In this document: positions 3,135-64,000 of the stretch, one piece after another
Layout of the letters: every line of letters begins with the position of its first letter
How positions within the stretch are numbered: the first letter of the stretch is position 1
Assembly: GCA_951802425.1 (NCBI GenBank)
Contig: OX637798.1
Span: 2,914,001-2,978,000, forward strand
Length of the DNA stretch: 64,000 nucleotides
Reading direction: 5' to 3'
Origin: Clavaria fumosa
Lineage: Eukaryota; Basidiomycota; Agaricomycetes; Agaricales; Clavariaceae
Notes under the pieces: model-generated
The model's database searches: none
What the model was told of the DNA's origin: nothing
The model's input: only the letters and a program-made list of their open reading frames with translations
Position numbers and translations under genes: made by a program

Positions 3135-3136
3135 TA

Positions 3137-3505: not shown

Positions 3506-3509
3506 TAGT

Positions 3510-5811: not shown

Positions 5812-7541
5812 TTACATTAGTTCTGCGTGGCGCAGATGGTCTCGCAGTATGATCTCTTCGACTGAGGGAGAGTGGGCGGTTGGTCAGTCACAAGCTCGCT
5901 GAAAAGAGGGTGCGGATGGGGAGGGGAGACCAGAGGAGGCTTACCAGTGCCCAGGGTGACCGCCGTGGATTCCGTATCCTGTGCGCACAGATACCATCAA
6001 CGCAGAATGGGCGAAACGAAGGCCAATACGAACGATGACTGAAGTAAGGTGAAAGAAGAAGGGGCGTGGCTCGGGGGAGTGTTTCCGTTGTATTTCCCTG
6101 AAGTGCTGCTGGAAGTCTTGAGAAGGCAACAATCAGACAAAAAAGAAAGAAGTGGAACGAAATGGGATAGAACAAAACGAACACTTGGTCGCAGTAGGCA
6201 GGTCGTTCTTCCGATCGCCAAAGCTGGGCACGCTGTCCCTGATGCGGACGCCGCGGCGAAGCTTCGAGTCGAGGATCATCTGCGTTTGCGCGAGCCACTT
6301 GCATGCGCACACCACCTGCCACAGCAGGTAGTTGTCCTCGAGCCGGTTCACGCGCCGATCCTCCACGAGCTTCCCGTCGAAGCATGAGATGGGCGCAAGG
6401 AAGATGATCGCGTTCATGTCGTCGAAGGAGGAGTACCATGCTGCGCGCTGGCGCACTGCGAAGATGTGGGGGGGAGTTGGTCAGCCGGCCTGGACACCCT
6501 CGGGTACAAGTGGTACGCGCGGATGACCGGGGCCCGCCCACATCGTACATGAGCCATTCCTGGCCAACCCTTTGACCTGTTTCGATTCAACGGAGGGGCG
6601 GTCAGGACGAAGGAAGCTTTCAAAGGGAGGGGGGAGGGGAAATAAAGAGAATGGAACGCACCGTGGTCAAACACGAATTTGCACTCCTGCTCGCCAAGCG
6701 TGCGCAGACGGGCTCGAATGACATCTGCGTCCGTCGGCTGGTAGTGGCGCGTGGCGGCTCGCTCGACGTCGTTCAGGAAGCTGCGCAGGGGCAAAGCGGG
6801 TCAGCACGCAGCACAGCAACGAAAGAGCAATAATAACAATAATGAAGCAATAGTCCTGACCACCAGGTCGATACGCACAATTCTGGGGTCTCCTCAAGCC
6901 TGACGCTCCGCTTGGCCACAGCGGACCACAACATAGGGTCCTCCCATATCGCCTTCATGTCGTCCGCGCACGACGCAATGACTTCCGTGATGTCGTTCAG
7001 CTCCGTGCCCCAACCACGCCTCGCGACGGGGGTCGGCTGCTGCGCCTCTCCCGCAGCAGCGGCCACAGCGGTGGGCGGCCCGCCCACAGCCGAAGCGGTC
7101 CAGTGCGGTCTTCCACCCGTTGCGTGAGTTGATCGAGAACTCGTGCCGCTGCTGCACGCAGAACGCCGGGGCTCGTGTCCGTGTCGTCGAACGGCGCGGC
7201 GGTCGTGGTGGAGGTGGAGTGCACCTCGCTCACCGCTCGAATGCGCCGCAGCGGCTCGAGGAGGAGCTTCAGGAGACGGTGTTTTTCGGTGAAATGCTGC
7301 TGCTGCAGGTGGTGTGGTTGCAGCGAGGCCGGTGGGGCGGCAGCTATGGTGGCGGAGGAAAAGGGGGCGCCTGTAGTGGTGGGCGGGGGAGAGGGCGTGG
7401 AGGTTTCGGAGCGCCGGGCCATTTCGTCGGAGAGGAGGTCGAGTACGGTGTTGAAATTGCGGACGAGGTTGAGCTGGATGACGGCGCGCCATGAGGCGCG
7501 TTCTTCCTGCTATTCACGGCGGGCGTAGGCGAGCTGGAAGT
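5812..7541 (-). pseudogene. Degenerate G-protein alpha subunit
   Basis: Reverse-strand multi-exon gene for a heterotrimeric G-protein alpha subunit of the divergent basidiomycete type, a membrane-associated GTPase that relays receptor signals. Exons read as about 6879-7541, 6662-6780, 6517-6576, 6183-6455, 6034-6116, 5945-5978 and 5812-5861; the GT-AG introns between them keep frame. Visible parts are the helical-domain segment ending FLNDVERAATRHYQPTDADV, switch II DVGGPR (usual DVGGQR), FDDMNAIIFLAPISCFD, VNRLEDNYLLWQ, SFGDRKNDLPTATK, and the C-terminus TAVTLGTVEEIILRDHLRHA. MIL runs directly into DSKLRR: about eight residues with the NKxD guanine-specificity motif are gone in frame. The first visible exon has a TAG stop (RRE*QEERASW) and needs frame changes near 6990-7150. 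No P-loop exon was found upstream. The late exons are too well kept for a very old relic. Confidence 0.8.
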
Positions 7542-8117
7542 CTGATGCGTGGTGGGGGTTCCACAAGCATTGGCGGTAGGATCAACGAGCGTCAGAATGG
7601 GATCACCGAGCGTCAAGAGATGGATGGCGCATTTTTGAGGGTGGCGGATTTACCTGGTATTAATGATGACATCATCCATGATGAGTTAGTTACATGACCA
7701 ATTTCTCAATCACACACAGAATAAGCGGCTTTAGACTCTCTCACAGAAGGAGTGAATGATCAAATATCTCCTCTCCCATTGTGCATTGTCCAATGGCTCA
7801 CTCAAGTTAGCTAAGCCGAGCCGAAAAAAGCCGAGCCATGGCAACACTAAGGAGGAGGAACGAGTCTTTCGCATTCGATCGAGATTCGATGAGTCAGAGA
7901 TCTCCTTTGAACTAGCGATGACATCATCGTTGATTCGTCGGGTCACACAACCTTGCACCACGATGAGTTATATATGAAAGTTCTTTCTAATCTCAGACTG
8001 GCTAATCTCAGCCTAGAATGAGCTCAAGATCGGTCATCTCGATAGCCATCCATCGACATTGTAGTGTACCTTCTGAGCTGTCCTTTCGTCGACTCGTTTT
8101 GGAAGCTTATTTATTCA
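7542..8117. other. Intergenic between G-alpha and exchanger fragments
   Basis: Contains a short repeated 'caacgagcgtcaga' motif near 7580-7610 that recurs at about 9260-9280 beside the second G-alpha fragment, so the two flanks are duplicates. No further gene seen. An earlier exchanger exon may hide in 8018-8117 but I cannot support one. Confidence 0.35.
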
Positions 8118-45339: not shown

Positions 45340-46050
45340 TGGAGGATATTGAGTGATACAACACACCCATCAATTTGAGTGATATTAAACTGGGGAATAT
45401 TGAGTGATACAATGGCCCCCTTAATTCGAGTGATATTAAGCTGGAGGATATTGAGTGATACAATACACCCCTTGATTTGGGTGATATTAAACTGAAGGAT
45501 ATTGAGTGATACAAAACACCTTCAATTTGAGTGATATTAAGCTGGAGGATATTGAGTGATACAAAACACCTTCAATGTGAGTGATATTGAAGTAAAGGAT
45601 AATGAGTGATACAATACACCTCCTTGATTTGGGTGACATTAAGCTGGAGGATATTGAGTGGTACAACACATCCATCAATTTGAGTGATATTAAACTGGAG
45701 AATATTGAGTGATACAATAGGCCCCCTTAATTTGAGTGATATTAAGTTGGAGGATATTGAGTGATACAATACACCCCTTGATTTGGGTGATATTAAACTG
45801 AAGGATATTGAGTGATACAAAACACCTTCAATTTGAGTGATATTAAGCTGGAGGATATTGAGTGATACAATACACCCCATGAATTTGAGTGATATTAAAC
45901 TGAAGGATATTCAGTGATATAATACACCTTTTAATTTGAGTGATTAAACTGGAGGACTTTGAGTGATACAATACACCCCTCAATCTAAGTGATATTAAAC
46001 TGGAGGATATTGAGTGATACATCTCTCAATGTGAGTGACATTAAGCCACA
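45340..46050. repeat. 50-52-bp minisatellite
   Basis: About 14 units built on 'gatattgagtgatacaa' and 'tttgagtgatattaaactgg'; the 'tgagtgatac' landmark falls at 45350, 45401, 45452, 45503, 45553 and onward. Reads as short ORFs on both strands only because the unit lacks stops. Confidence 0.95.
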
Positions 46051-46067
46051 AAATTTTATTGTCTAGA

Positions 46068-46150
46068 TGGGGACTGTAGTGTAATGGGTAACATAGCAGT
46101 TATGGGTTAAGTCCAATTCCATGAGCACTTGAGTTCAACTCCCATTGAGT
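46068..46150 (+). ncRNA. tRNA-like (possible SINE head)
   Basis: Has a box A-like 'tagtgtaatgggtaacat' and, about 45 bases later, a box B-like 'gagttcaactcccattgag'. Acceptor and T stems do not pair well, so this is not a working tRNA; it could be the promoter head of a tRNA-derived SINE. Support is weak. Confidence 0.25.
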
Positions 46151-46720
46151 GCATAATTTAGAGGCTAAAAAAATACCTGGAGACATAGTTAAAATCACTA
46201 AAAGTATGTAGAAGCCACCTCAAATATCAGGTTAAAATGTGCTTGATAGCAGTGACATTCACCTGGAGAGCAGCAGGTGAATTTGGTCATATATGTGCTG
46301 AAAAATAACCCATTTGATGTACCTGATTATCAACCAATACAGTTTCAAGATATCATCAACAAATTAATTTTGTGCAATTTCTTGCAGAGAAAGATAGTGA
46401 AAAGCACCTCAGATTATGGTTGAGATGACCCAAAAACTATTGTGAAATTAACCCATTAGATCAGCTTAAAATGCACTTATGATATAGTGAAATTCACCAT
46501 TAAAAATCAGCTTAAAAGACACCTGTACTGTAGGAATAATCACCCAGAGAACAGCAGGTGAATTCGGTCATATAAGTGGCGAAAATCACCCATTTCATGT
46601 ACCCAATAAAGATGTGATTATCAACAAGTCCTGGTGATTTTCACCTAGGAAACCATTGCTATTCGCCACTTCTCAGGGTGTTTCATATGGTGATTTTAAC
46701 CAGGTTTTGGTCTTGCAGTG

Positions 46721-47281
46721 GTGACTGATCTCAAGATGCTCCATCAGCACCTACGAGATCAACTCAAGGTTGTGAACGAAGCCTACTCACACTTCACAGA
46801 CAGGAAGAGAGAGATTATGCCGGATTGGAAGGAAGGGACAAAAGTGTGGTTAGATTTGTGAAATGTGAAGACAAAGAGGCTGATGAAGAAGCTGGATTCT
46901 AAATGAGCCAGACCTTTCCCTATACTCGCGAAAGTCTCGACTCATGCCTATCACCTCCAGCTTCCAAAATCAATGCAAGGAATACATGATGTGTTCCACG
47001 TTTTGTTACTAGAGAAGGTCTATGACGATGCCTTCCCCCAACAACAACAGCAACCCCCACCCCCTATCGAAATTGATGGCGAACAACACTACAAAGTCGC
47101 CAACATACTAGATTCTCGAAGGAGGGGTAGGAAAGTGCTTTACCTTGTATGTTGGGAAGGTTACAGACCCAAAGATGACACCTGGGAACCCATTGAATCA
47201 CTTTCCGGCTCAAAGGAACTTCTCGAGGACTTCCACGTGACCTACCCAGAAAAACCTTGTGCAACTTGCACAACTCAATAA
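46721..47281 (+). pseudogene. Gypsy X integrase C-terminus and chromodomain
   Basis: Continuation of pol after the insertion. It shows LKMLHQHLRDQLKVVNEAYS, the GPY/F-like KKLDSK*ARPFP region, FHVLLLEKVYDDAFP, a Gln/Pro tract, and a chromodomain: HYKVANILDSRRRGRKVLYL, VCWEGYRPKDDTWEPIES. Chromodomains of this class bind methylated histone H3 and target heterochromatin. TGA codons occur in LDL*NVKTKR and DSK*ARPFP, both at Arg positions of relatives. Stop at 47279. Confidence 0.8.
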
Positions 47282-47541
47282 TTTTCCTTGCCTCCTTTTC
47301 ATTTTTCTTCACTTTCTCACTTCAGAATCCACAGCAGTATATATATGCAATAAAAATACAACAAGAAAAATTCTATCTACTGGTTGCAAACCTTTTCCTT
47401 CCCCTTTCGCAACCCTTCTGCCCCTTCCCCACCTTCCACACTCGCGATTTTTTCCTCCTCTCCCCCCTTCTCCTTCTCTCCAGCCTCAGGACCCTTCAAC
47501 TCTATGCCCCATTGATCCACCCTCGGAAGATCCACCAACTC

Positions 47542-49495
47542 CTACCATACGCGATGCTGCTCCTGCTCCGCCCACTTCTCTACCCACAACAGGAGCTCTT
47601 GTGGTGATTTCAGCAAGAGGTCTTCGTAGGTGAAGAAGACTGTTTCGAGGCCTTGTCGTCCTCGAAATCGAGCCTCGTGGAGCTTGCCGACCATTGTCGC
47701 GCACCTACTGCGCAATTCTAGAAACAAACCATCAGCCCATTGTCAAGAATACGAAATCTGCGACGACTTACCTTTTTCCTGTTCCCTACTCACTGACAAC
47801 TCCCCCTCCATCTTTTCTACAGTTGCAAACAGTCCTGCAAAATATGGATTAGCCTATTTTATACTCGCAACTGTAGAACTTACTGCATTCCGACTCCTCC
47901 GCCTCTGCCAATCTACGCTGAACCTCCTCTAGTTCAACCTTTTGATCTAGATAAACAGGAAGATCAGCTACAACGTTGCAAGGCGAAATCGGGACTTACC
48001 GACACCTTCCTTCTTTGCCATAGCCATTATCCCCTTTACCTCCTCAAACTTGTTGTGAGTTTTCTCCAGTATTGTTGACCATTCTGTGGGCGAAATTAGC
48101 TCACTTCACACTCGCAAAATTTGGACTTACCCTCCCTCTCCTTCTTCATCTCCCTCAACTCGCGACACGCCTCTCTCAACTTGGCCTCCTGGTCTGAATA
48201 AAGAGAGAAATTGGTTTGTAACATGGTAAAAACCAAACAATTACTTACCTTCCCACTCCCCATGGAGTGCCTCAAACTCCCTCTCCACTCCCTCAGCCCG
48301 CGCCATCAGTTCTGCGACTTCTGCATCCACAATTTTGGATGCTGGCACCTTTGACGATTCTTCTCGCGTCCTCCCCACCTCTTTACCTTTTCCTACAAGA
48401 CTTGCGGCTTCAGTAAAGCTGCAAATCAATAGAGAAATCCTGGGACTCACCTTTTGCGCTCCTCTGCGCTTCCTCCAACTTGCGCCTCACTCCTGCCAAT
48501 TCCACCTCCAATTCCGCCTCCCTTGTGGACTTTGGCATCCACACTATCTTCTGTGTGGGCTCCACAACTTGCTGTTGGAGCGTTGCGAGCTCCCTCTCAA
48601 GGTCAGCTCTTGGGACCAAGGTCCCCGCGACCTTCTCTCCCTCCTCCATCAACTCCCTTGATGATGCCAGCTTTGCGACTCGCCTCCTTGTCGATGGACC
48701 AGGCATTGGCGATCGCGACCTTGTCCTTGCCCATTTTCCATGTCCTGCTCGCGTCGGGGTCCCCGGAATCGGCAGGGTGGAAACTTTCCCCCCACTCGGC
48801 TCGCAACCTTGGGCGTTGCTGTGCCCACCGTTACTGACCCTTCTGCGCACTTCAGCGCCTCATCAATCTTCGTGTCATCCCACCCGTATTCGCTCTTGAC
48901 ACGCCATCGATGGAAGTCTTGGACCCAGGAACACTTCCCGTGGTCCTCCGTGCACTGACGACATTTACTGGCAGTGCTGCGCTCGCACTGCCGGCTCTTC
49001 ACGACACAGTTGTCACAATTCTGCAACCCCAATGATCAGAGACAATGAAGTGGAGTGAAAATTTTTGTTATGCACCTCCTGCTCCATCTCATTCCATTCT
49101 TTATTTTCCCTTACTGATCCGATTTTCTTCCATGCCTTTAATAATTCTGCAGGCAACGGATCTGTTACACCTGCGGAGTTGTCCCCCATCTCACTGGGGT
49201 TTGCAACGCTACCTGCCGCCTCATTCATACCCGTGACATCGCCGCTTGTGCTCACAATGTCACCTCGTGCCTTGTAGGGACCCGCGACCTTACTCTTCTT
49301 CTTTTCGCGCCTCACGACTTCGTCTCAGGAATGCGCACATCGCACCTGTTCAGCCTTTTGATGGGCCAGTGCATCTTCTAGGATCCCCAGGTTGAGGCTG
49401 GGTTCCGCTTCATCATAGATGTGCATTTCGCGCACGACCTTGTTTTTGTCCTTGTTGGTTTTGGGTTTGTGTTCTTTGACGAAGGGAGAGACCAT
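47542..49495 (-). pseudogene. Antisense Cys-rich coiled-coil gene of gypsy X
   Basis: Reverse-strand gene between pol and the 3' LTR, convergent with pol. The start (49495, context 'ccaccATGG') reads MVSPFVKEHKPKTNKDKNK, then an in-frame TGA in CAHS*DEVVRREKKKSKVAG. An intron with donor GTGCAT and acceptor TTGCAG (about 49020-49076) joins EMEQE to NCDNCVVKSRQCERS, followed by CRQCTEDHGKCSWV: seven or so Cys in a zinc-binding pattern, as in fungal DNA-binding clusters. Downstream exons are Glu/Arg-rich coiled coil (LERELATLQQQVVEPTQK, LMARAEGVEREFEALHGE), ending EDLLLKSPQELLLWVEKWAE and HRVW stop. Several more introns are needed between exons and I did not fix each. Function unknown; an antisense accessory protein of the element is the best description. 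Confidence 0.6.
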
Positions 49496-49611
49496 GGTGG
49501 TTAGACTTAGAGAAAAATTTCAGGTGTCGTGACCTGATCAACAAACATCGCACTGACTAATCATCACATGATCTCCACTCTCACAGGGCTCGAGGCTTGA
49601 AGGGGGGGTAA

Positions 49612-49855
49612 TGTCAGGACCCATTCATTTTTCCTTGCTCAAGTCAACTCTACCAACACTTACGAACCTCCCAACAGCCCTCTACAACCTTGCGAGTCAA
49701 ATGCACCACCAACGGTCAGCTGTATATTCCTTTCAAATATGCTCCCCTTTCTCTCCTCAGTCGTCTATAACTACATTGCATATGATCTGAGAATCCCCCG
49801 GTAGTTATAGTTACATACATACTTATTTAACCAGGTCACGACTTGTGACAGGTCA
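49612..49855 (+). repeat. Gypsy X 3' LTR, first part
   Basis: Starts TGTCAGGACCC right after the polypurine tract. It resembles 230-430 of the window start ('cagtcgtctataactgcatt'). Interrupted at GGTCA (49851-49855) by gypsy D. Confidence 0.8.
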
Positions 49856-50080
49856 TGTAAGGCTATAGGCCTTTTCTATTCTTTTATTACGTAATCTACA
49901 TACCATAATAGTCTACTAGCATAGCCGCTTAGGCTATGCTTACATCAGCAGCCCCTAGAGGGCCGCTCGCCTATATATACCGTGTCGCGACTGTACAGAG
50001 AGGGTAGATCCCTCTACATAGAACTACTACACTCAATATACAGTTGAGTCCGGTTCTTTTGAGGGATAGAAAGCTTTACA
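49856..50080 (+). repeat. 5' LTR of gypsy D
   Basis: 225 bp, TGTAAGGCTATAGG to AAAGCTTTACA, with TATATATA near 49971 as a likely TATA box. It contains hairpins such as 'atagccgcttaggctat' and 49999-50015. Confidence 0.92.
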
Positions 50081-50118
50081 ACTTTTTTGAACCTTCAACA
50101 CAACGAGTGTGGTTAGAA

Positions 50119-51983
50119 ATGGGTTACACCCATATAGCTGCACAGAAAAAGCACAACAGGAAGGGAGGAGAAACTCCTCCCTTGGTAGGACCTCTGCGTG
50201 ACACAGGCGTCGCGCAGCCAGAGGGAATAGGACCCTCTGTCGAGCCCAGTGGTGAACCCCCACTAAGGGCTGACATGGCGTCACCAGCCCCTGATGATGG
50301 CGTTAGGTCTGAAATGCTGTCGACACATGGCAATCACCACGAGGAGGGTGCCACAATGTGCAAAGTCACTGGCGAGGCACCATCATTCAAGAAGGCTGGG
50401 CCTTCAAAAGGAAAGGGCAGAGAGCCCTTAGAAACCTGTGAGAGGTGGCCGCGAGAGTGGTTAAGCTCGCAGGCTCCCTCCAATAGTGGAGACGAGCCCA
50501 CAGCGATAGCGCGAGCTAACGCTGTAGCCGAGAGACTCTTGGACATTCAGGTGGAACTCTCCCACCAGGACGAAGAGTTTGAGGCTCTTGTAAGGGCGAT
50601 GAAAAATCGCCAAGCCACTATTCGGCAACAGCTAAGCGAGGAGGCTACCCATGTTAGGCGGGTGTTGGACTTGCTAGATGAGCAGGGAACCGCGCTAGCG
50701 GCTCCCTTACGGTGGCAATGCCGTGATTCGTTGGAACCCAAAGGGGGGCTTGCCCTGCCGAGTCAGGTGCCCTCAGGGGTAGCCCCAGAGGCCAGATGGT
50801 CGGCGCCAGCCGACCACGAGGAAGGGTGGTGAAGGGAGAACCGTGCGGATGGTTCTCGAACCCCTGGCGAACCAGGAATAGAGGGCGGCAGCCCTCGAGA
50901 AACAGCAGGGCTGGAGCCGTGGCTTATGTTGTGCTACCCACAGCTGGGTCAGTGAGAGCCAACGGGCTGGATGGAACTGCCCCAGAAGGAGTGGGAGATT
51001 ACTCGGGAGGTATCCCCAAGTTCTACAAACTACCAGAGCGATGTATTACATCACTACCTTGTGATGATACGAGAAAAAAACTTTGCTATTGCCTGAGGCA
51101 ATAGCTGAGATTAAGGGGATTAAGATCGACCCCCCTGAGCTTTATGATGGATGAGACGACCTTGTCATCTGGGAAAGGTGGCTCGATGGCCTCCTTAATT
51201 ACTTCTACTTCTATAGAGTAGTCGGCCCGCAGTTGGAGCACCAACATGTTATGCTAGCAGGGTCACACTTAAGTGGAATAGCCGCTACTTGGTATATCCA
51301 AGAAGTAACAGGTCTATCCCATGCTCCTCGAAGGTGGACCTTCGAGGAATTGATAACCACTATGTTTAAGTGATTCCTGACTGAGGTAATGGCCCAGAAG
51401 GCAGTGGATGCCTTCTATCAGGTGAAGTTTACAAAGGCGAAGGGCGCCTTGGGATTCTGGAACAAATTGGTCCAGGCGGCAGAGAGAATGCTCACCCCGC
51501 CTGACGCCAGTACGATGAAAAGGCAGTTCCTTAACGGACTGCCTAACGAGATGGTGGAGACCATCTTCAAAACTCGTGTGATTAGCATCAAGTTATCCTC
51601 GGTTGAGGATATTATCGACGCTAGTCACCAAGTGGAAGCGACCCTCCACTACCTCCAGCAGCAGAGGGCAGTGCCTTCAGCAGGAAACCAGGCAGGTCCC
51701 AAAGGAAACCTGCCCACAGGCAGAGTGCCTGTGGGGCAGAGGTTTGTGAGACTGCGGCCGTATCGGCCGCACACAGACCGTAGGCCAGGGGAACCTGTTC
51801 CCCTGCGGATCGACCGCGCACGAGACGAGCATGCCCAAGCTGGAGGGAGCAAACCCCGGCTTGAACCGCCTAAGGTGGTGCCCAAGATTGGGGTACGAGG
51901 CGGAGAGGAGTGGAAAGCTCCTCTAACATGCTATGTGTGCGGGAAAGTAGGGCACTACACGAATGTGTGCCCTCAGTCACAGT
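50119..51983 (+). pseudogene. Gypsy D gag
   Basis: Begins MGYTHIAAQKKHNRKGG after the 5' LTR; an N-terminal charged region with a coiled-coil stretch (ELSHQDEEFEALVRAMKNRQ) runs to a TGA at 50830. After frame changes the capsid-like part reads IKIDPPELYDG*DDLVIWER, LAGSHLSGIAATWYIQEV, FNGL-like FLNGLPNEMVETIFKTRV, ending with a zinc knuckle CYVCGKVGHYTNVC (51930-51971). TGA codons at 51151 and 51373 stand where Arg is expected. Capsid and nucleocapsid of the particle. The zinc knuckle is intact; stops and shifts make the copy inactive. Confidence 0.8.
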
Positions 51984-52006
51984 GAAAGCCAGAGGCTTTT
52001 AGGGGA

Positions 52007-52810
52007 AATGTAAGGAATTACGCCTTACAAGAGGATCCGGGTGAGACAGAGCCCGAGGAACCGCAGGAAACACCTGCGGTTGAAAGCAAGGAACCAGAGG
52101 GTGAAATCCCACTGGAGGAAGTCGTGGAAGACGACTATGCTGGTCGTGGGGACCAGTACGATTCAGACGAGCTCTTCATCCTTGAAGAGCTCAAGGAGGA
52201 GGCGGAAAGCGACCAGGTTGCTGGAATCTGGGAAGTGGAAGAGGATGAAGTCCTCTACGCAACAGAAGTACGCGTCGGCCATGTTGATGACAGGCCGTTT
52301 CGGGCGCACATCTGGAAAGAGCGGATGGGATCGTGCCCAGTAGTGACAAAGGAGGCAAGGCAATGCCTTGCGGCCTACATCACTGTGAACAGTGTAAAAG
52401 CATACATGCTTTTCGATTCGGGAAGTACCCCGGACCTGATGAGCCCAGACTTTGCCTGGGTGATGAAGGTACCGACCTTCCAACTGGATAATCCAGTTCC
52501 TTTCCAACTCAGCTGTATCAGCAGCCGATTGATGATCACACACGGATGCCATGTAGCGGTAGATTTAGGAGGAATACAGGTGGAGGACCAGTATTTTGAT
52601 ATAGTGAACGTTGACCACTATGACATCATAGTCGGAATGGCATTCATGTATGACTGCCGTGTGATACTGGATGTGCACCGACATGCAATCCAGATTGGAG
52701 AAGGGAAGGGGAAAACCCTTCAAGTGATGTCACCCAGTGAGGAGACAGAAGTGTTACACATCCGTATATCGGCTAAGAATGCGCTGAGGAAGGAAGCTCA
52801 AAAGAGCTGA
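52007..52810 (+). pseudogene. Gypsy D aspartic protease region
   Basis: After an acidic linker (VVEDDYAGRGDQYDSDELF) comes a retropepsin-like domain: AYITVNSVKAYMLFDSGSTP with the catalytic DSGS, then VDHYDIIVGMAFMYDCRVIL as the second conserved strand. It would cut the polyprotein. The open part is 52124-52810; a TGA after QSQ (51983) separates it from the zinc knuckle and another TGA (52808) ends it. The catalytic triplet is intact. Confidence 0.8.
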
Positions 52811-54051
52811 CTACACTCAGGCCCCCGGGAAGAGGGTGAGCCCTGGAAGGGGGGAGAGGCTAACGCCTCTGTAAAGATAGACGATGCCTACCTCGAAGGC
52901 AGGCATGAGTACTGGTTTAACCAGTACGCCGAGCTCTTTGGGGGAGTTCCCCCCAGACCGCCGCCGTTTCGGGCGGTGAACCACTGCATACCCTTAATAG
53001 ATGAAAAGCAAGTCTATAATTATTACCTGCCTCGGTGTGCTGAGGCATTCAAGGAACAATTCCTTGAGAAGGTGAACCGTTATATTACTAACGGTTGGTG
53101 GGAAGCAGGAGCAGCATCGCAAGCAGCTCCTATGCTATGCATACCAAAAAGCAGCCGGAACCCGCTGCTATGGACAGTCGTAGACTGTCGGAAATGGAAT
53201 GCGAACACAGTACAGGATATTACCCCGTTGCCTGATCAGGATCAGATCAGACAGGATGTGGCTAGAGCCGCATATAGGTCAAAGATTGACCTATCGGACG
53301 CGTACAAGCAAGTATGCGTAGAACCTGAGGACATGTGGAAGACGGCGTTCGCGATTGTCTTGGGCACCATGTTCTCACAGGTGATGCAGATAGGGGATTG
53401 TAATGCCCCTGCTACCTTCCAGCGCCTGATGACGCACATATTTCGTCATCAGTTGGGAAAGTATGTGCATGTGTACTTAGACGATGTATTCGTCTTCTCC
53501 AAGACCTTGGAGGACCATGAGCATCACTTAAAGATGGTCTTTGAGACCCTCAAAGGTGCGAGCTTTTTCTTGAGCAAGAAGAAGTGCTCATTATACGCGA
53601 AGAGCATAGATTACTTAGGGCATATTATAGATGCCCGAGGAATCCATGTCACAGTGGATAAAATGGATAAATCCATAACTGGAAAACGCTGACAAGCGTT
53701 AACGAGGTGCAGAGGTTCCTCAGATTAGTACAGTACATTGGACAGTTCATGCCCAATCTGTCCACTTATACTGGCCCTTTGGCTAGTCTGTGTAGTGAAA
53801 TGCGAATGTTTCACTGGAGACCACTCCATGACAAGTGCATGGAGATGATTAAGGCATTGGCATGTAAAACACCAATACTACGCCTGGTAGACGCGGCGGT
53901 ACAAGAGCCAACTTGGCTCGTGTGCAACGCCTCGGTGTCAGGCGTAGGGGCCATGTATGGCCAGGGAAAGACATGGGAAACCTGCCATCCGGCGGGGTTT
54001 ATGTCTAAAAGGTTCAGTTTAGTTATAAAACTTGGGACCGGGAGGCCTTAG
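52811..54051 (+). pseudogene. Gypsy D reverse transcriptase
   Basis: Open 52976-53692, then shifted frame 53707-54051. Motifs: KVNRYITNGWWEAGAASQAA, TVVDCRKWNANTVQDITPLP, YRSKIDLSDAYKQVCV, APATFQRLMTHIF, the catalytic VYLDDVFVFSK, and IDYLGHIIDARGIHV. Near 53680 an indel shifts into WKTLTSVNEVQRFLRLVQYI, the thumb and start of RNase H (ASVSGVGAMYGQGKTWET). The YLDD box is intact. Confidence 0.85.
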
Positions 54052-55930
54052 CAATTGTCAAATCGCTACAGAAATGGGAGGATAAACTCCTCAGTAGACA
54101 AATCAACATGGTCACAGACCACGAAGCACTGGGGTTCTTTAAGAACCAAATGCACTTGTCTGGCCGGCAGGCCAGGTGGATGGAATACATGGAGAGGTTT
54201 GACTACTCCATCACTTATATTAAAGGCGAGAGCAACAAAGTTGCGGATGGCCTTTCGCATTACCATATGAGTGATGTGACGGATGAGATTCATCCGGGTC
54301 ACGAGTACATGAAGGTGGATGTTCCCCTTGACCCTGAAGGGGACAAGTTGCCCCGTGGATGCCTGGAGGAGGTGCATGCACTACGAGTACACGCACCTGC
54401 CGCGGACCAGGAGACCGAGCAGGAGCAACCGCCGCCTGTGCCCCAAGCGGACGGGGATGTGAGGGACGAGATGCTCATGCCCTTAAGGCCCCGCATGGAA
54501 GGGGGGGATAGCAGGATGCTGCAAAGCATCCATGATGGCTATGAACAGGATCGCCTGTTCAAAATAATTTTGGAACAACTGGGAAACTACACCGGTTTTA
54601 AGATCAGGGAGGACCTGATCTTCTCCGAGAATAAAAAGGGAGACAAGGTGCTCTGCGTACCTCGTACCCTTCATGAAGGAAAAAGCATCCCTGGAATATT
54701 AATCCAGGAAGCCCATGCGGTCCTAGGACATATGGGGTTGCGGATAATGACAGATTATGTCTGTCGTTACTACTGGTGGCCATCGGTGTCTAAAGACATC
54801 GATAAGTTTTGTACATTGTGCGGTGTGTGCCAGACGAGCAAGACTTCCCTGCAAAAGCCGCAAGGGCTTCTACACACCCTTCCGATCCCCAGGTGGCCCT
54901 GGGAATCAATAGGAATGGACTTTGTAGGTCCATTCCATGTCAAGAGAGGCGGACTACCTCTGGGTGGTGATTTGCCACCTCACTTCACTGGTACATCTAG
55001 TACCAGTTACAGTGTCGGTAACGGCAGCAGAGCTAGCCTGGCTCTTTCTAACCCATGTAGTGAGACTACATGGGCTGCCAGGATCAATTGTGTCTGACCG
55101 TGATCCTAGATTCACCTCTGCCTTTTGGCAGGAAATGCACTGACTACTTGGTGTAAAGCTGCGGATGTCCACAGCTTTCCATCTGCAGACGGATGGAGCA
55201 ATGGAACAGTCGATCCGATCTGTGGTCCAACCGGACCAGATGGATTGGGCGGAGCGAATCCCAATGGTCGAATTTGCCATTAACATGTCAATCAGCGCGT
55301 CGACAGGGTTTGCCCCATTTGAGCTCACCTATGGGTACATGCCCCAGATGATGGCAGAGTTGCCAGACAACCTCTGGGTGGTGCCCAGAGGTGTAAGGAT
55401 GTGCGCGGAGAAAGCCACGCTCAACCTTGCAATGGCGCACGATGCAATTATAGAAAGTCACATCCACCAGACGTTTTATGCTAACCAGCATAGACGGGCA
55501 GAGCACCCATTTAGAGAGGGAGAATTAGTCTACCTCTCAACAGAGAATTTGAATCTCCCTAAAAAGTGAGCTAGAAAGCTCATGCCGAAGTTTATTGGGC
55601 CTTACCCAATATGGTCATGTAGACCGGAATTGTCGACGTACGAGCTGGAGCTCCCCGACTCGCTAAAGTTGAGGAGGATCCACCTGACATTCCATGTCAG
55701 CCAGTTGCAGCGACATGAGCCGAATGACGATGCATTGTTTCCATGTCGTGAAGTGAAAGTCTTCTATGACTTTGGCATGGACCTGAAGGAGGAATGGCTA
55801 GTAGACGCCATTATTGGCCATAGGTGGGAAGGACGCCACCTAGAATGCGAGGTCTGATGGAACCTCGGGGATATGACTTGGGAGCCGTATATGGGAGTCA
55901 AAGAGCTAGCAGCTCTAGACCACTACCTTG
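54020..55930 (+). pseudogene. Gypsy D RNase H end, integrase and chromo-like tail
   Basis: RNase H end: DREALAIVKSLQKWED and MVTDHEALGFFKNQMHLSGR. Integrase zinc finger: HAVLGHMGLRIMTDYVCRYY with CTLCGVC. The catalytic D-D-E falls in WESIGMDFVGPF, SIVSDRDPRF and LQTDGAMEQSIRSV; a frameshift lies between the first two (about 54945) and TGA codons after QEMH (55141) and after LPKK (55567) replace Arg. The tail EEWLVDAIIGHRWEGRHLEC, EV*WNLGDMTWEPYMG, is a chromodomain-like end with one TGA (55855). Confidence 0.82.
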
Positions 55931-56126
55931 AACTACAAGGTGTAGACTCGTGGAGGGCACTACCTAGGTGCCCTCGAGCAGAGTGCGGAGTAGTAAACGC
56001 GATTGAGCCAGACTGCGGGGTTGTTAGCCACAGTGATTAAGTCACATGGTGGCTCCACCGTAAGGTACAAAACCTTAAGAGGGCCTGCCCTCTTTTTCTC
56101 TTTTTCCTCATCAGCCATTTTTTACA

Positions 56127-58237
56127 ATGGATGATCTGATGGGGGAAACCCCATCTCCTCGTGCTACCCATGCTGCCGCTGCTACCGCCGCCGTCCCTGG
56201 CCTCATGCCAGGGAACTCGCTGCCAATGAGCATCGTCGGAATGGCTGGGTTGTCCCAGCCGTCGTTGTCGCAAGGGGAGGAAACTCTCCCCTGGGTCCAG
56301 GATTGCATGATCCATGTGATCACCCATGGATCCCGGTGCCCTCAGTGTATCGGATTCCGTTGCCACATCTTCGAGTCGCTGCTGCACTCAGATGAAGCAT
56401 TTCAACAAACGCTTAAGGAAGTGCAGGAAAGCACTAAGTGTGAGCTTGAGCCGGAGCTTGGGATGATGCAGCGCAAGTTGGATGACTTGCATGAAGAGTA
56501 TGAGAAGGGCAATGCCCTTTGCGCCGGGCACTGGCAAAAGCTTGAAAAAGCTTATGATAGCCTGGATAAGGTCGAGAACAACCTTAGAAAGGTGTGGGAG
56601 AAGATTCTCTCCTTGACTGAAAAGTTGGCAAGCGCCAACGAGGAGCTCGCCGCAGTGCGAACTGCAGCGAAAGGGATCCCTTGGAGCAGGACCCTAAAAG
56701 GGCCCGCACTGCCGTCTCATACGTGGACATAGCGCCGCCTATGGGGGACATGGATGTCCCCATGAATGTTGAGGAGGGGTATCCCCCTCTTCCACCTGCT
56801 GGTATTAGCCAGCAGAACCCCGATGCCTCACTGAGGCATAAATGAACGTTTGCAGAGACGGTGCTTGCGCCTCCGACAAGGGGTTATCCCTTTAATGCTC
56901 CCCACCCGGACAGGGCTCTGGATGGCTATCCCTGGCCATCGGGGATGTCCATCAAGCCCGGTGCATGGGCTGTCGAGTTGAAGATGGTTGAGGAGGTGAT
57001 AGCCCTCAACCAGCAGGCGCATCATGGAGCGCCTGACGGCAGTTACAATATGACTGCCATAATGAAGATGCGATGGACCATTAAGGAGGCCCAGAAGAAC
57101 GCGGCAGCGGGAAAGCTGCCTATGCCAGTTGAGGACTGGCTGTTGAGGAACTGGAGAGTTCCTGCCAGTGTCGAGAAATTGGCAGACCGGGTGGCACACC
57201 ATCTGCAGGGGCAGATGTTGCGAGAGAGCAGAGGGATGGGCGACCCATCCCTGAGGGCAGGACCCTTGGAAGTCGCAGGAGGGGGAGCACCCTCCTATCC
57301 GTCATACCAGACATTGCCGCTGACAGCAGCAAGAGTGGTTGCGCCTCCCATTAGGGAGTTTGTAGAGACCGGGGAGCCATTGCTCCCCCAAGAGCTGTGG
57401 CTCTCCTTTGTAGGGGAGAAGGGGGAAATTCCCCCTATGAATCCGAAAGGTGACAGAGGTGCAGTGTCAGACCTGTGCTGCTGGGCTGCTGACATAAGGA
57501 TGGGCAGGGCGGCCGTCCTTGGGATTGATAAAGATGGGGACTCACCCCTGTCTTTTGCATGCAAGGTGGCCATCTGGCGCACCATAATGGCGTGCGCACC
57601 GTCTTGGGCCCGAATGCAGCGCCCGTTCCTAGCTATGGCTGTAGCCCTCTTTGTGTCAAAGGGGGCATATGTGCAGGCCATCAAAGGGAGAGTCCTCCCT
57701 GTACGACGTTCCAGGCACTGGAACACAAAGATAACGCCAACCGTTGTGCAGACGATCGAGGCATTTGTAGATGCCGGAGTCTCCATTGGGGAAATGGAGC
57801 TCTGGGACAAATTTGTACTCATGTGGGCACACGAGTATGTGCGAAAGGGGAATGCCCCCTTAGACGACAATATCCAGCTAGCGCTGGGTGAACGGGAGAA
57901 GCCTCCTGTACTGCCCCAGACATATGCACTGCTAGAGTGCATAGGGCGCAGGGCACATCTGTGCCATCTTCAGCTGAGCGAGAAGATGGGAGATGAACGG
58001 AGGGGCGATGCGCCCCTGGACGACAGTGGAAGTACATCCATCGTTAAAAACCCCCTAGGGTTACCTATCGGGGGTTTAACAATATCTCAGACAGAGGGTG
58101 CGGGGCCCTCTCAAAAACAAAAGAAAGTGGCTAAGTCATCAGCCACTAAGGCCACGAAGAGGCCTGTTGTGTCGTCGCCCAACTGGAGCGACAACGAGGG
58201 CGAGCCACCATGCGACTATGAGCAGGGCTCAGACTAA
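56127..58237 (+). CDS. Extra ORF of gypsy D, unknown function
   Basis: Sense-strand gene between pol and the 3' LTR, absent from ordinary gypsy elements. Part one (56127-56732) starts MDDLMGETPSPRATHAAA, has a CPQCIGFRCH zinc-like patch and a long coiled coil (LEPELGMMQRKLDDLHEEYE, LSLTEKLASANEELAAVR). A one-base shift near 56670 links it to the frame ERDPLEQDPKRARTAVSYVD, then one TGA (56843) where Arg fits, then the 458-residue part (56861-58237): YPWPSGMSIKPGAW, VAHHLQGQMLRESRG, CCWAADIRMGRAAVLGID, VVQTIEAFVDAGVSIGEMEL, and a Lys/Ser-rich end. I do not recognise a family. Its layout, Cys patch plus coiled coil, resembles the antisense gene of gypsy X, but the sequences do not match by eye. 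Confidence 0.6.
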
Positions 58238-58535
58238 GCGTCCGAGCTCTTTAAAAAATATGCCTACCCCGCAGGACGAGACAGCGGCACTTGGGGCACC
58301 CCCCACCGGGGTGTGCCACTCGTGACACACTGTCCAACTGGGGGCAGGTTGCACAGACCACTGGGTAGGACCCGTCAGCACCAGGCGAAGGCCCCAGGAG
58401 GGGATCGCGCCCGGTGACATGGCGGTAACCCTGCCCAAGGGAATGCGCCCCTTGTAAAATTATCCTATGATCCTGCTCGTCGTCCTGTGCTGCCCGCACA
58501 TTGCCTCTGGTTGGGGCCTCTCCGGAGGGGGAGGG
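58238..58535. other. Gypsy D 3' non-coding region
   Basis: No gene. Hairpins continue (for example 'gcaccccccaccggggtgtgc' near 58297). Ends in the polypurine tract before the 3' LTR. Confidence 0.6.
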
Positions 58536-58760
58536 TGTAAGGCTATAGGCCTTTTCTATTCTTTTATTACATAATCTACATACCATAATAGTCTACTAGC
58601 ATAGCCGCTTAGGCTATGCTTACATCAGTGGCCCCTAGAGGGCCGCTTGCCTATATATACCATGTTGCGACTGTACAGAGAGGGTAGATCCCTCTACATA
58701 GAACTACTACACTCAATATACAGTTGAGTCCGGTTCTTTTGAGGGATAGAAAGCTTTACA
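58536..58760 (+). repeat. 3' LTR of gypsy D
   Basis: 225 bp matching 49856-50080 except for sites such as acgtaa/acataa, gctcgcc/gcttgcc and accgtgtcgcg/accatgttgcg, which are CpG transitions. Followed by GGTCA. Confidence 0.92.
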
Positions 58761-58882
58761 GGTCATCTTCACAACTCATGATAGGTCATCTTCACGACCT
58801 TACCTATGCGTTCCTAACCCCTTGCGACTTTAGTAGAGCATGCGCCTAGTTACTATATGACTAAACATACCCTGTGCTACTA
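58761..58882 (+). repeat. Gypsy X 3' LTR, middle part
   Basis: Continues the LTR after the gypsy D insertion (first five bases are the duplicated GGTCA). 'gaccttacctatgc' and 'tttagtagagcatgcgc' match 440-490 at the window start. Ends at TA (58881-58882), the pogo target. Confidence 0.8.
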
Positions 58883-61810
58883 CAGTCATCCACTGGTCCC
58901 TGAACCAGCACCATTTCTTGAAACAATTTTTTTTAAACACTCATACAACAAACCCATGACCTCATAAATGGTACTAGCTTGGCCTACATAGTCTTGTACA
59001 TACAGGTAAAATTGGATTTGCCAGTTGCATGCTTGGATCTCAAGTGAGATTGAATTTATTGCATAATTTTTGTAAATTTGCATTCTTGGTCACATAATAA
59101 GTTTTGAAAAAAATCATATGTTGAACTGTGATAATACTCTACATGGTCTAATGCAATTTGGACCAAGGAAACACTTCTAAAGAGAGGGAGAGGCCATCTC
59201 TTGCAAAGTGGCTGTTATCATGTCATGTCACACTTTTTATCTGACTCACTGGCACATGCAGCATGACATGGCATGGATCCAGCAATAAAAGTGTAAATCC
59301 TCCTACTCTCTCCAACCTCCAAGAAAACGGTTAGAAAGACGAAATCTCAGAGCAAAAAACATCAAGAAGATTCTGAGCTGCACAAAAAATGGATGCAGAA
59401 GGCTATCGAGTTCTACAATGCAGATCACACCAACCTGACATCTGGAAAGGAGCCACGGTCTGCCCGACAATGCTGCCAAGAGGCCGAAGACCTTTGCTTT
59501 CAAAAAACCAACAAAAAAAAAGGTCAAGCTATCTTATTCCACACTCTTACGACAAGCCAAAGGTGGACACTCTATTCACGAATTCAATACCACAAAACGA
59601 TGGTTGACAGATGCTGAAGAAAAAATGGTATCTGACTACACACTTGAGCTTGCAAGCCACAGTTTCCCATTGAGCCATCAGCGACTCAAAGAACACGTCA
59701 CCGAAATTCTTAGAGCACGAGCAGGCAATAATCAAAGTTTCCCAGAGAGTGAATTGGGCGTAAACTGGACAGCACGATTTGTTGAGCGTCATCCAGAGCT
59801 CCAAATGCATTGGTCGCATGGGCTAGACCACTCACGTGCAAGAGCCGTCAACCCAGCTACAAAAGAAGCCTTTTTCAAGCTCTTCAAAGAGACAGTAGAG
59901 GGAAGTGGGGGAGATGATGTCATTCCACCGGAGCTGATATGGGGAGTTGACGAGACAGGGTTTCAAGAGGGAATCGGAGGCAAAGAAAGAGTTATTGGTC
60001 CTAAATCCAAGTCTGTTCAGCACCAGCAACGTGGCGGAGATCATGAAAATATTACTGTAATTGTTGGGATATGTGGAGATGGTACCAACACCTCACCGAC
60101 TATCATCTTCAAAGGCGAGTGGTTCCAGACGAGCTAGAAGCAAGAAAATCCACTCCATGCTTCGTCAGTACCATTGCTTACATACAAAAACCAAATACTT
60201 ACAGTATTTCAGCCTGGGGTATGCACAGAAAGGGTATGTCAATGGGGAGATTGGTGTTGAATGGATGAAAAAGTTTGAGCGAGCCACATCAGCCAAAGCG
60301 AATGGACGACGACGACTGCTCCTCGCAGATGGACACAACTCACATTACACCCGTGGCTTTCTTGAACATGCTCGAGAACACCGCATTCATGTCATCTGCT
60401 ACCCCTCACACTCAACACACGTGTACCAAGGGCTTGATGTCGTCATATTCAGTGTTCTCAAGCGCCGCTGGTGGGAAGCTCGAGATAAATATGAACGGGA
60501 ACATGGAAGGAAGGTTGACAAGACGTATTTTCTGTCAGTCTATGCCGAAGCCCATACACGAGCACTCACTGCTGAAAACATCAAGGTTGCATTCAAAAAA
60601 ACAGGACTGATCCCATTCAATCCCAATGTCATAACAGAAGAGGCAATGGCACCAAGTCGCGAGTCTTCAAGCAAGGGAGTGCTCCCAGTCAGGCAAGATG
60701 ACTCTATCCAAAGTATTGCTGATGCAATCTGCACCAAATATTCAAGACAGCAAAGTACTGAAGTGCTGCCTGAAAATCAGGACCAAGAACCTCAAATAGA
60801 TCCAGCATTGACAGCATTAGACTCACTCGCATCAAACCCGGCATCATTTATCAAGCTTTCAATCCCAATCTCCCCCTCAAAGCCGCTGACATTCAAGCCA
60901 AACATAATTTCACCTGTGAAACATGAGAGATACAAGGAGCTTCTTGACGAAACACCAAGCACGCACCAGAGCGGCCTCCTTCAAGATGCTCTTCGAGACA
61001 TGAAAGCCTGAGACACTCAACATAAACAGCAGCTGATTGAAATGCAGGCAGTGGTGATCTTGAACACGATTTATGTTGATCAGGTCCAAAAGCGGCTGCA
61101 AGAGCATGAAAAAGTCAAAAATAAGAAGAAATCGAAGCGAATCATGAGCGATGGCTTACCGCATCTTCTGGATGGAGACAAGTTTTTTGAAAGGGTTGTC
61201 CAGCATGAAGAAGCATTAAAAAGAGAAGCCGAAGTGAAAAAAGCAAGGCAGTCACAATGCAGAAGGCATGGCGAGATGCTGGCGGAGTGGAAAAAGGCTG
61301 AGGAAGCACGGAAGGTTTGAAATAAAGAAGTGAAGGAGCAGTGGAGCAGCGCAGTGAAGGAGTGGGAGAGAGAACGTGATGCTGCTAAAGCAGAAAGGCG
61401 AAGAGCCACTGGAAAGAAGCCAGTCCTTAAAGATTATGGTGATGGTGGGTTAGAAAAGGCCATGCCCAGGCCCAGGCTTGAGGATACTGTTGATGATGAT
61501 GAGGAGACTGGCTCAGATTCTGACGATAGTGACACTGAGACTGAATGATTGGACTCCGAAAAAGGGTCGGCATTGCATGGCAGCGTGATGTGACACCTGG
61601 TGCAAGGACTAATATTACGACTGATAACGAGTTTTTTGAGAGATTGGTCCCGATCTTAACCAATTTCAATCTGATTTAGATTAAAATGGGCAGTCATGTG
61701 GCTTAGAGGGTACTAATTTGATAGGTATTACCCGATTTTATTAAACTATAATACACATTTCGTGACACTTGCCTGAAAAATTCACTGGTGCAAGGACCGG
61801 TGGATGACTG
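58883..61810 (+). mobile_element. Pogo/Tigger-type DDE transposon
   Basis: 2928 bp with inverted ends CAGTCATCCACTGGTCC on the left and CAGTCATCCACCGGTCC on the reverse complement of the right (about 25 bp with three mismatches), flanked by TA at 58881-58882 and 61811-61812. Removing the element plus one TA restores the LTR sequence seen at 525-535 (ctactatagt). Contains a DDE_1-type transposase gene with four lesions. Confidence 0.92.
59393..61548 (+). pseudogene. Pogo-type DDE transposase
   Basis: Cut-and-paste transposase with CENP-B-like DNA-binding N-terminus. Starts MQKAIEFYNADHTNLTSGKE, with an N-terminal helix-turn-helix; a one-base slip in A9 (59513-59521) moves to the frame SYSTLLRQAKGGHSIHEFNT then KRWLTDAEEKMVSDY. 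The CENP-B HTH follows (GVNWTARFVERHPELQMHWS). DDE core: IWGVDETGF, a TAG (60135-60137) where Trp is expected in EWFQTS*KQENPLHAS, a 49-bp intron 60164-60212 (GTCAGT...TTTCAG) that joins HAS to LGYAQKGYVNGE, then RRLLLADGHNSHYT and STHVYQGLDVVIFSVLKRRW. Two TGA stops (61009, 61318), both likely old CGA, precede a Lys/Glu-rich coiled coil and an acidic end. All three catalytic Asp positions survive. Confidence 0.88.
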
Positions 61811-62518
61811 TATAGTTCTGTCACCTGGTGACCTCTGTACTTTTCCTTTTTTGTTATACTCTACTGTATGTATGTATATAAGTCTCACATGTACTTCTCG
61901 TATGGTAGACTTGATATTGATGCACTTTGGTTTAAGCTTGAGGCTATTACGCCCTTTGAGCTTGGAACCACCGTGATTGATAGGTCTTGTCTCACTTGGT
62001 GACCTCGACAATACCAAGACCACTCTGCTTATCTCTAAACTCATCCTCTGTGCTTGTACAACTTGTGCGCTCTAAGTATTCTCTTTACTTCGTCTTGATA
62101 CTGATTCTTTGAACCCTATAGGTTCTCCCGTCAGTTGGCAAAGTCATTGCCTTCACCGATATACTTCTCGATACTATTGCAACCACTCGCGACCTTCACG
62201 ACACCATCTGTTTCTCCCACCTTGTCTATTTCTTTTACTATGCTTCATTGGTCAACTTCGCAACCTTCTCAGTGTTATCCATTTCTCCCAACTTGTCTTT
62301 TCCTTTCTCTACACTTGTCTACTGACTTCACAACCTTCCAAGCAACATCTCCCTTCTCTTTACTTGTCTATTTACACCCTTTCAGACATCCTCGCGACCT
62401 TCCGGGACCAAGCATTATCGACTGTGCTCAACAGTTGATTGGTCTTAGTGAGTTTCCAGAACTGGTCACCAACAAGTCGACCTTTGGCATTACTTATGAG
62501 ACAGGACAGGCCCTAACA
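61811..62518 (+). repeat. Gypsy X 3' LTR, last part
   Basis: Resumes after the pogo insertion and matches 530-1310 at the window start in order, including 'gtctcacatgtactt', 'ggtttaagcttgaggct' and the CT-rich third. Ends CCCTAACA (62511-62518). With the other two parts the LTR is about 1067 bp. Confidence 0.85.
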
Positions 62519-62520
62519 CT

Positions 62521-62970
62521 CAGGACAAAGGGAGATGGAAGGTAGAGACAGATGCGAGTAACCTGGCAACTGGTGGAGTGCTCTCACAGCAGCAGACAGA
62601 TGGAACCTGGAGAGTCATGGACTATATCTCCAAGGCCCTCACTGCAGCTGAGAAGAACTACGATGTGTATGACAAGGAGTTCTTGGCTGTGATTCGGGCA
62701 CTTTGTGAGTGGCGGGCATACCTCATTGGAGCAGATGAGACAATTGAAATCTGGATGGACCATGCGAACCTCCAGTACTTCCGGAAGCCCCAGAAGTTGA
62801 AACCGAGGCAGGTCCGTTGGGTTGGAGAGCTCCAGTGCTTTGACTTTGAGATAAAGTATCGCACTGGCAAGTTGAATACGAAGGCAGATGCACTCTCCTG
62901 GAGACCGGACTATGGAGAGATGGTGGAGGAGGATGCACCGGTGCAGGTTTTCCTGGAAACGGAAGTCCGT
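62521..62970 (+). pseudogene. Gypsy C RNase H fragment
   Basis: Reads VETDASNLATGGVLSQQQTD, KALTAAEKNYDVYDKEFLAV, IEIWMDHANLQYFRKPQKLK, QCFDFEIKYRTGKLNTKADA. This is the RNase H and connection domain that degrades the RNA strand during reverse transcription; the DASN and DHANL segments are present. The upstream RT and all of gag lie outside or are lost. The frame runs on into the solo LTR and stops at 63084. Relative to gypsy B the differences are mostly transitions. Confidence 0.82.
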
Positions 62971-63876
62971 TGTAGTAGGCTGTACAGGTGTTGGCTGCAA
63001 ATAGATGTTCGCGGCCGGGTTCTTCAGGGGGTCTTATTGCACAACGGGTATACTAGACAGAACCTTGGAGGATATGGAGGTTGAGTGCAAAAGGTTCAGA
63101 GAGTGAAAATATATGTTGTCCGGAGTATCCGGTATCGGATCCGATAGAGTCCGATGTTTGGATCGAAGGTTCGAGGGGCCGGCGACGACGAAGGCCAGCA
63201 GATCAATAGGTACGACAAAAGGTGAGCTTGCTAAAAATCACAGCACGATGTGGGCGTTCAAAAGCTGGATTTCTGTATAGTCCGAAGTGTGCTTAAGTAC
63301 AGTTCTGTAAGTACAGCAAATTGGAATGTACGGAAATGTCCGGAAAACATATGGAACAGCGCCATGTCGCGTGAAGGGTTACATGAGGGAGTTATATCAC
63401 AAGGGAATTGAGTAGCTCGGAGGAATGAAATGTCCGATGAGTAGCACATGTCCGGACCGCTCGTAAACTGAAGGAAAGTGGGGCTGGTACAGCAAAGGGG
63501 TATTAGGAACAATGGGCAAAGTACTGCAAAGGGTTGGAAACGTTCAAATGATTGAATGGTTGAAAGGGATCACAATATGAAATTTACAGCATGTTATATG
63601 AAATAAAGGAATGGGAATGGAATAATGAGTATGTCGAGCGCTGACCATGCTGGAGTGATGAAATAGAAAGGCGTGGGCGGTGTGTGAGACCTGCGGGCTG
63701 TGATCTTCACGGGGAGTTGGAGACCGGAGAGTCCGATGTCGGATAAGTATCGGTCGTTATCGGATGGTGTCGGATTGTTATCGGATCGTATCGGACGCGA
63801 TTGCTTTGGATCCCGAAATATCCGGATGATCGGTATCTGTCATGTTTCTATGTTCAAACCGCATATTATCCTTACA
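62971..63876. mobile_element. Solo LTR of an unrelated retrotransposon
   Basis: 906 bp from TGTAGTAGGCTG to ATCCTTACA, flanked by the duplicated CCGT (62967-62970, 63877-63880), which restores the gypsy B sequence when one copy is removed. TG...CA ends and no coding sequence mark it as a solo LTR. It carries a cluster of 'tatcgga'/'tccgat' motifs at 63115-63160 and 63730-63840. Confidence 0.85.
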
Positions 63877-64000
63877 CCGTGTGTCATTCACATCGGAAAT
63901 GGAGACACTACTCCAGAAAAATAGCGCAGTACACATACAGAAGCTGGAGGAGCTTGATGACAAGTGGACACGAGATCATGCTGGACTCTGGCAAAAGGGG

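Follow-up and report, generated by a model that had tools for sequence, protein, structure and literature searches.

A Ty3/gypsy retrotransposon family of Clavaria fumosa saturated with short perfect hairpins

Results

Structure of element D

The stretch of DNA analysed here, 64,000 nt of contig OX637798.1 of the basidiomycete Clavaria fumosa (the window), carries a long terminal repeat (LTR) retrotransposon of the Ty3/gypsy type, element D, which occupies positions 49856-58760 of the forward strand (8905 nt) and is saturated with short perfect hairpins. The element is bounded by a 225-nt 5' LTR (49856-50080, TGTAA...TTACA) and a 3' LTR (58536-58760) that is 97% identical to it, and two copies of a GGTCA target site duplication can be read from the sequence on either side (49851-49855 and 58761-58765). 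Thus, both the TG...CA LTR ends and the short target site duplication of Ty3/gypsy elements are present. A domain search of the open reading frame (ORF) pieces of D found RVP_2 (protease; piece 52124-52807), RVT_1 (52976-53689) and Integrase_H2C2 (54108-55094), in the order known for Ty3/gypsy (Metaviridae); RNase H had no match among the seven pieces searched.

All coding parts lie on the forward strand and are broken in D, and other copies of the family retain them in better condition. The gag-protease frame (50008-52807) has long open stretches in several copies, and in 3 of 11 copies the pol frame (52811-55990) remains open for 1066-1077 aa. The two share one reading frame, in which a TGA stop followed by CTA (52808-52813) stands at the junction; TGACTA is kept there in all 16 sequences compared. 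UGA-CUA is a stop-codon readthrough context, and the TGA-CTA of D looks like such a signal. An extra ORF (56041-58234) runs uninterrupted between stops for 723-744 aa in 6 of the 11 copies; in D it is split into two pieces (56127-56732 and 56861-58237), neither of which has a Pfam match. The larger piece has one homologue, the metagenomic protein P0121 (57%), among the 7997 scored candidates that shared most words with it. The last ORF is separated from the 3' LTR by a noncoding stretch of 298 nt (58238-58535), at the end of which is a G-rich polypurine run. There is no obvious primer binding site, and an exact self-priming match of at least 7 nt to the LTR was not found from 50081-50105. Rfam at gathering thresholds gave no matches across 49000-59600.

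Hairpin density in D and in the rest of the window

We define a hairpin as a perfect inverted repeat with a loop of 0-10 nt and, unless stated otherwise, a stem of at least 7 bp. D contains 73 such hairpins, whereas 20 dinucleotide shuffles of it contain 5.5 on average and 10 at most. The excess holds at every stem length: 135 hairpins against a mean of 19.2 for stems of at least 6 bp, 37 against 1.5 (maximum 3) for at least 8, 18 against 0.2 (maximum 2) for at least 9 and 6 against 0.05 for at least 10. Random DNA is therefore far poorer in such stems, just as the first-pass annotation of this DNA, made by eye, had supposed. Shuffling that preserves the codons leads to the same result (100 shuffles per ORF piece): six ORF pieces hold 49 hairpins, compared with 5.2 for the summed shuffle means, and each of the six exceeds its own codon-shuffle maximum at stems of at least 6, 7 and 8 bp. 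All 18 hairpins listed in the annotation are exact, two of them extending one pair further (57232-57252 and 57420-57436), and its impression of a hairpin in nearly every 60-base stretch is a fair one, stems of at least 6 bp occurring every 66 nt on average. The longest perfect hairpin has a stem of 11 bp and a loop of 2 nt (51325-51348), and loops are generally short, 30 of the 37 stems of at least 8 bp (loop up to 10 nt) having loops of 1-5 nt. The LTRs share in the pattern, as had been claimed, with one 9-bp hairpin in each (49918-49940 and 58598-58620) and no other of at least 7 bp; in another copy of the family, L010, the 5' LTR has none of this size.

The density is a property of D and not of its surroundings, since 73 of the 121 hairpins of the window fall within the 8.9 kb of this element. 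The annotation had described its neighbours as free of saturation, and fragment A (0.00 hairpins per kb observed, 0.34 shuffled), gypsy B (0.81 and 0.69) and gypsy C (0.00 and 0.55) are indeed near chance. Corresponding values are 0.56 and 1.03 for a Helitron, 1.02 and 1.27 for a NACHT-WD40 region and 0.50 and 0.47 for positions 60000-64000. The segment directly upstream of D (45400-49855), which has no similarity to it, shows 1.35 hairpins per kb against 0.45 after shuffling. As to the NACHT gene near D, its best match is at 92%, and its named relatives are from fungi such as the agaricomycete genera Mycena and Jaapia (47-49%).

Predicted folding agrees with the hairpin counts. D is predicted to be strongly folded, with a minimum folding energy difference (MFED) of about 23% on either strand. 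In 44 segments of 200 nt the MFED is 23.6% for the sense and 24.9% for the antisense strand, well above dinucleotide-shuffled controls, with a mean z of -3.43 (sense) and 82% of the segments at z below -2; in 25 fragments of 350 nt it is 23.2% and 23.1%. Elsewhere in the window (63 segments) it amounts to 7.5% (sense) and 8.6% (antisense), with z of -0.92.

Hairpin saturation throughout the family

To see D in the context of its family, we scanned the genome (48.8 Mb, 17 contigs). A 544-nt reverse transcriptase (RT) piece of D gave 40 scored matches out of 176 first-look candidates, and with an Armillaria RT protein as the query 112 of the 150 scored genome matches had at least 49% identity. 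Several similar RT matches are located close to the ends of contigs, which suggests spread with subtelomeres. In nine more near full-length copies, which share 90-93% identity with D, each copy carries 64-88 hairpins, so that all 10 of the near full-length copies in the first comparison are saturated. Saturation extends to partial members, down to about 80-84% DNA identity to D. Hairpins are dense, too, in the diverged members L029 (82-86%), L038 (84%), L036 (85% in gag) and L040 (87%). L029 (positions 3114-7812 of the locus G000:C7:130900-140100), whose MFED is 17.2% on the sense and 19.9% on the antisense strand, is a shortened relative of D, and no 5' LTR was found within the locus.

In total, D-like DNA of the fetched genome loci from L009 on contains 1617 hairpins in 188,863 nt (8.6 per kb), compared with 98 in 75,414 nt (1.3 per kb) for the other fetched DNA. 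This background, made up of L034, five copia loci (0.8-1.6 per kb) and the sequence flanking or inserted into the fetched loci, does not sample the genome at random; its runs of at least 400 nt have 1.26 hairpins per kb, and 0.78 after one shuffle each. Among 11 copies, with stems of at least 6 bp, the LTRs have 12.9-13.7 and the internal parts 10.0-16.1 hairpins per kb. Unlike the rest of D, the 3' noncoding stretch (58238-58535) has hairpins near chance; in the 11 copies it has 3.3 per kb against 4.6 after shuffling. Since it does have hairpins at stems of at least 5 bp (13.4 against 8.2) and at least 7 bp (2.7 against 1.5), it should be regarded as near chance rather than hairpin-free. A scan of the genome contigs for relatives added three distant loci (29-35%), of which L031 is mildly enriched and L032 and L033 are not; in viral contigs two scans found no relatives of D. 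Hairpin saturation is thus a real, strong and family-wide feature.

Could purine-rich coding sequence with unusual codon use simply yield many hairpins by chance? Some enrichment is seen elsewhere, as L034 has 9 hairpins against 2.9 after shuffling and L031 has 16 against 4.9. However, dinucleotide and codon shuffles reach no more than roughly a tenth of the D count, and the other elements examined in the genome lack saturation. These results refute composition as the cause, and we give it virtually no credence.

Age of the hairpins and decay of the copies

The hairpins occupy the same places across copies, and they predate the divergence of the family members compared. Copies differ mainly by transitions (637 of the 712 differences between D and L010). 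Changes private to D, scored at sites with agreement among at least 8 of the 9 other copies, are chiefly CpG decay, affecting 144 of 618 CpG cytosines (four contexts) compared with at most 3.4% in any other context. The CpG transitions of D peak in ACG (38 of 101), and they point to cytosine methylation of the family in its host. Outside CpG, D and L010 differ at 231 of 7210 sites and the LTR pairs of 11 copies at 11 of 2303; given so small a divergence of the LTR pairs, we calculate that about 85% of the non-CpG changes separating D from L010 predate insertion.

Three causes had been proposed for the hairpins in the first-pass annotation: insertion of tiny hairpin elements, repeated template switching by the element's own RT, and selection for a folded RNA. 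The first can be rejected. At 71 of 81 sites with stems of at least 8 bp, none of the 11 copies lacks three or more pairs by a gap, so the sites are common to the copies and mostly ungapped, and hairpins contain fewer deletion breakpoints than chance would place there. The breakpoint result comes from another idea that failed, namely that hairpins are deletion hot spots. It had been suggested by three sites and a fourth, the hairpin at 52169-52192 (stem 10 bp, loop 4 nt, adjoining GAGCTC repeats), where 18 nt are missing in L010, L017 and L027 and a similar gap is found in L036; yet only 7 of 26 deletions break in a hairpin, compared with 12.5 for random placement.

Template switching as an ongoing process is not supported either, as the hairpins stand in the same places, the D-private changes are mostly CpG and double Watson-Crick changes outside CpG number 0 or 1 in each of seven comparisons (48-161 stem pairs). 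Double changes were also considered as a sign of covariation and set aside, many of them being G-C to A-T, which is expected from CpG decay in both arms as well. Inspection by eye of 21 of the 81 sites in the 11 copies, those at which copies differ or are gapped, revealed no multi-base gain by copying of one arm onto the other, nor was such a gain seen in the diverged members inspected. Derived shared bases land in stems in 5.0 of 166 cases (3.0%) in the 11 copies, compared with 4.3% for random placement.

A different matter is whether RT produced the hairpins in the past, snap-back synthesis or template switching perfecting near-palindromes that were then tolerated and are now fading relics. 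Consistent with this, the stems are Watson-Crick perfect with short loops and show no standing excess of G-U, only the D family is affected among the elements examined in the genome, and template switching is a described source of perfect hairpins (PMC8794818, in the part of the text available). The 5' arms are, moreover, purine-rich, a bias not expected from plain selection for pairing. In D, 82 hairpins with stems of at least 6 bp have more purines in the 5' arm and 33 have fewer (p 5.6e-6); the 5'-arm purine fraction is 0.617, and at stems of at least 7 bp it is 0.513 in dinucleotide and 0.482 in codon shuffles. Four other sequences show the same direction at stems of at least 6 bp, L027 no longer doing so at stems of at least 8 bp. 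Because the arm read first in a perfect hairpin is identical on either strand, this bias is uninformative on strand. In positions 1-49855 of the window, 42 hairpins lean the opposite way (8 against 28). On the other hand, the 5'-arm purine fraction (about 0.61) is above the background of the element (0.55) and so exceeds what simple one-arm copying would give. Continuing arm-to-arm conversion would also yield many double changes, of which few were found; no arm-copying gain was caught, and new stem bases are no commoner than random. Finally, as described below, stems of active lineages have changed less than the sites matched to them. Overall, we see a copying origin of this kind as possible, though rather unlikely.

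Selection on stems

Simple comparisons of mutation rates in stems with those outside stems or in loops were dropped as evidence of conservation. They are inflated because stems are chosen as perfect in the member compared, which hides its mutations, and because loop ends are chosen as mismatched. They were replaced by symmetric and polarised tests. The polarised test, which carries the least bias, takes non-CpG mutations, with L029, L036, L038 and L040 as outgroups, and asks how many hit stems standing in the copies that keep the ancestral base. In the 11 copies, private mutations hit stems about as expected (36.0 against 32.4, n=210) and shared mutations do so less often (14.2 against 26.0, n=166). 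With 25 whole or partial ingroup copies, 21.7 shared mutations lie in stems and 37.6 are expected (n=246, p 0.0023); for private mutations the values are 40.8 and 44.5 (n=293, ratio 0.92). Matching on base and codon position leaves the deficit of shared mutations in place (21.7 against 38.7, n=246, p 0.0013), and private mutations remain close to expectation (40.8 against 45.7, n=293, p 0.25, ratio 0.89). At third codon positions, 15.7 shared mutations are in stems against 27.2 expected (n=157), and 18.6 private ones against 23.4 (n=132).

Because shared mutations avoid stems and private ones do not do so significantly, it appears that purifying selection acted on the stems during the active life of the lineages, for which we consider the evidence moderate. 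After insertion there is no significant protection of stems. Among the three proposed causes, selection for a folded RNA is therefore the one that stood, with moderate support to which third codon positions contribute.

The mutations that hit stems also bear on the strand that is folded. Read on the sense strand, shared ones leave G-U in 19 cases, A-C in 10, other mismatches in 8 and a Watson-Crick pair in 2; for private ones the numbers are 30, 28, 15 and 5. The predominance of G-U over A-C among shared changes leans toward sense RNA, although it is not decisive and too weak to rely on.

Discussion

The explanation that we favour, with slightly better than even confidence, is that D is a decayed member of a Ty3/gypsy family with many copies, whose RNA carries selected structure along the whole genome of the element. 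According to it, the genomic RNA of the family would form short local hairpins along almost all of its length, and some 40% fewer stem mutations than expected would have persisted while the lineages were active, judged mostly at third codon positions. The selected form would be the sense RNA, which serves both as messenger and as packaged genome. Tight local folding may shield this RNA from host silencing and nucleases, and it may also compact it for particle assembly. Both the origin and the function of the hairpins are inferred.

A number of observations weigh against this explanation. The p-values of the polarised test treat mutations as independent and are optimistic, the copies being related. 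The direct contrast of private with shared mutations is borderline (Fisher p 0.06-0.08), and private mutations, too, fall slightly below expectation in the 25 copies. Of the 28 pairs in the symmetric pair test, in which both sides are added, 19 have a ratio below 1 and 9 a ratio above 1, three of the latter involving the relative L029; recent full-length copies are near 1, and it is the diverged pairs that mostly show 0.6-0.9. No clear compensatory covariation of the arms was found outside CpG. Among shared mutations of the 11 copies, losses exceed gains, with 14.2 stem losses and 5.0 derived bases in stems, as would also be expected if the hairpins were relics of RT copying. In 10 of 11 sequences A-C outnumbers G-U among standing stems with one mismatch, so that these show no G-U excess, and sense and antisense strands fold equally well.

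The last two observations would fit selection on single-stranded DNA or an antisense form, such as the minus-strand cDNA, instead of sense RNA. The lean of shared changes toward sense G-U (19 against 10) speaks against this alternative without being decisive, and we consider it unlikely.

Several known systems resemble the D family in part. Genome-scale ordered RNA structure (GORS) of RNA viruses likewise comprises hundreds of local stem-loops throughout coding sequence, and in the available part of the report (PMC7642675) MFED values are about 15% for SARS-CoV-2, 7.5-10.7% for hepatitis C virus and 23.4% for one avian coronavirus, the highest recorded. The approximately 23% of D is only roughly comparable with these values, as shuffling and fragment steps differ. 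In the viruses, variation is lower at paired than at unpaired sites (PMC7642675), and for the D family there is moderate evidence of the same. However, pairings are described there as poorly conserved between related viruses, whereas the places of D stems are common to the copies; furthermore, D is an LTR retrotransposon and its stems are Watson-Crick perfect. Mitochondrial genes of Nematomorpha, as far as the accessible text goes (PMC6649704), also have many perfect inverted repeats in conserved protein-coding sequence. Those palindromes are up to 284 bp long and come and go between species, whereas D stems are mostly 7-11 bp, stand in shared places and belong to a nuclear retrotransposon. 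Hairpins formed in RNA by template switching have perfect stems produced in one event, according to the available portion of that work (PMC8794818), but no such event was caught in the D family. Yeast Ty3 has a Ty3/gypsy genomic RNA with structured regions; Ty1 and Ty3 RNA are reported to contain up to 30% stable, highly structured regions (PMC11381356). The accessible part of this report describes structured regions interspersed with dynamic ones and makes no mention of saturation with perfect hairpins. In the open-access literature (titles and abstract openings among the matches listed, with subscription journals and preprints outside the scope), we found no description of a hairpin-saturated LTR retrotransposon.

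It is tempting to speculate that copying and selection acted together. Purine-rich RNA remnants that escape RNase H might prime plus-strand DNA, snap-back after a few bases might copy the purine-rich 5' arm into a matching 3' arm, and the resulting folded RNA might then be kept by selection as silencing-resistant. We hold this self-armouring scheme to be improbable; if it were true, the family would represent a retroelement writing its own RNA armour.

If the RNA structure of the D family is indeed selected, a transposon carries genome-wide RNA folding that is at the top of the range reported for RNA viruses and lies within coding sequence. The family would then offer a natural many-copy system, with dead copies as a built-in neutral control, for studying silencing escape, packaging and RNA lifetime.

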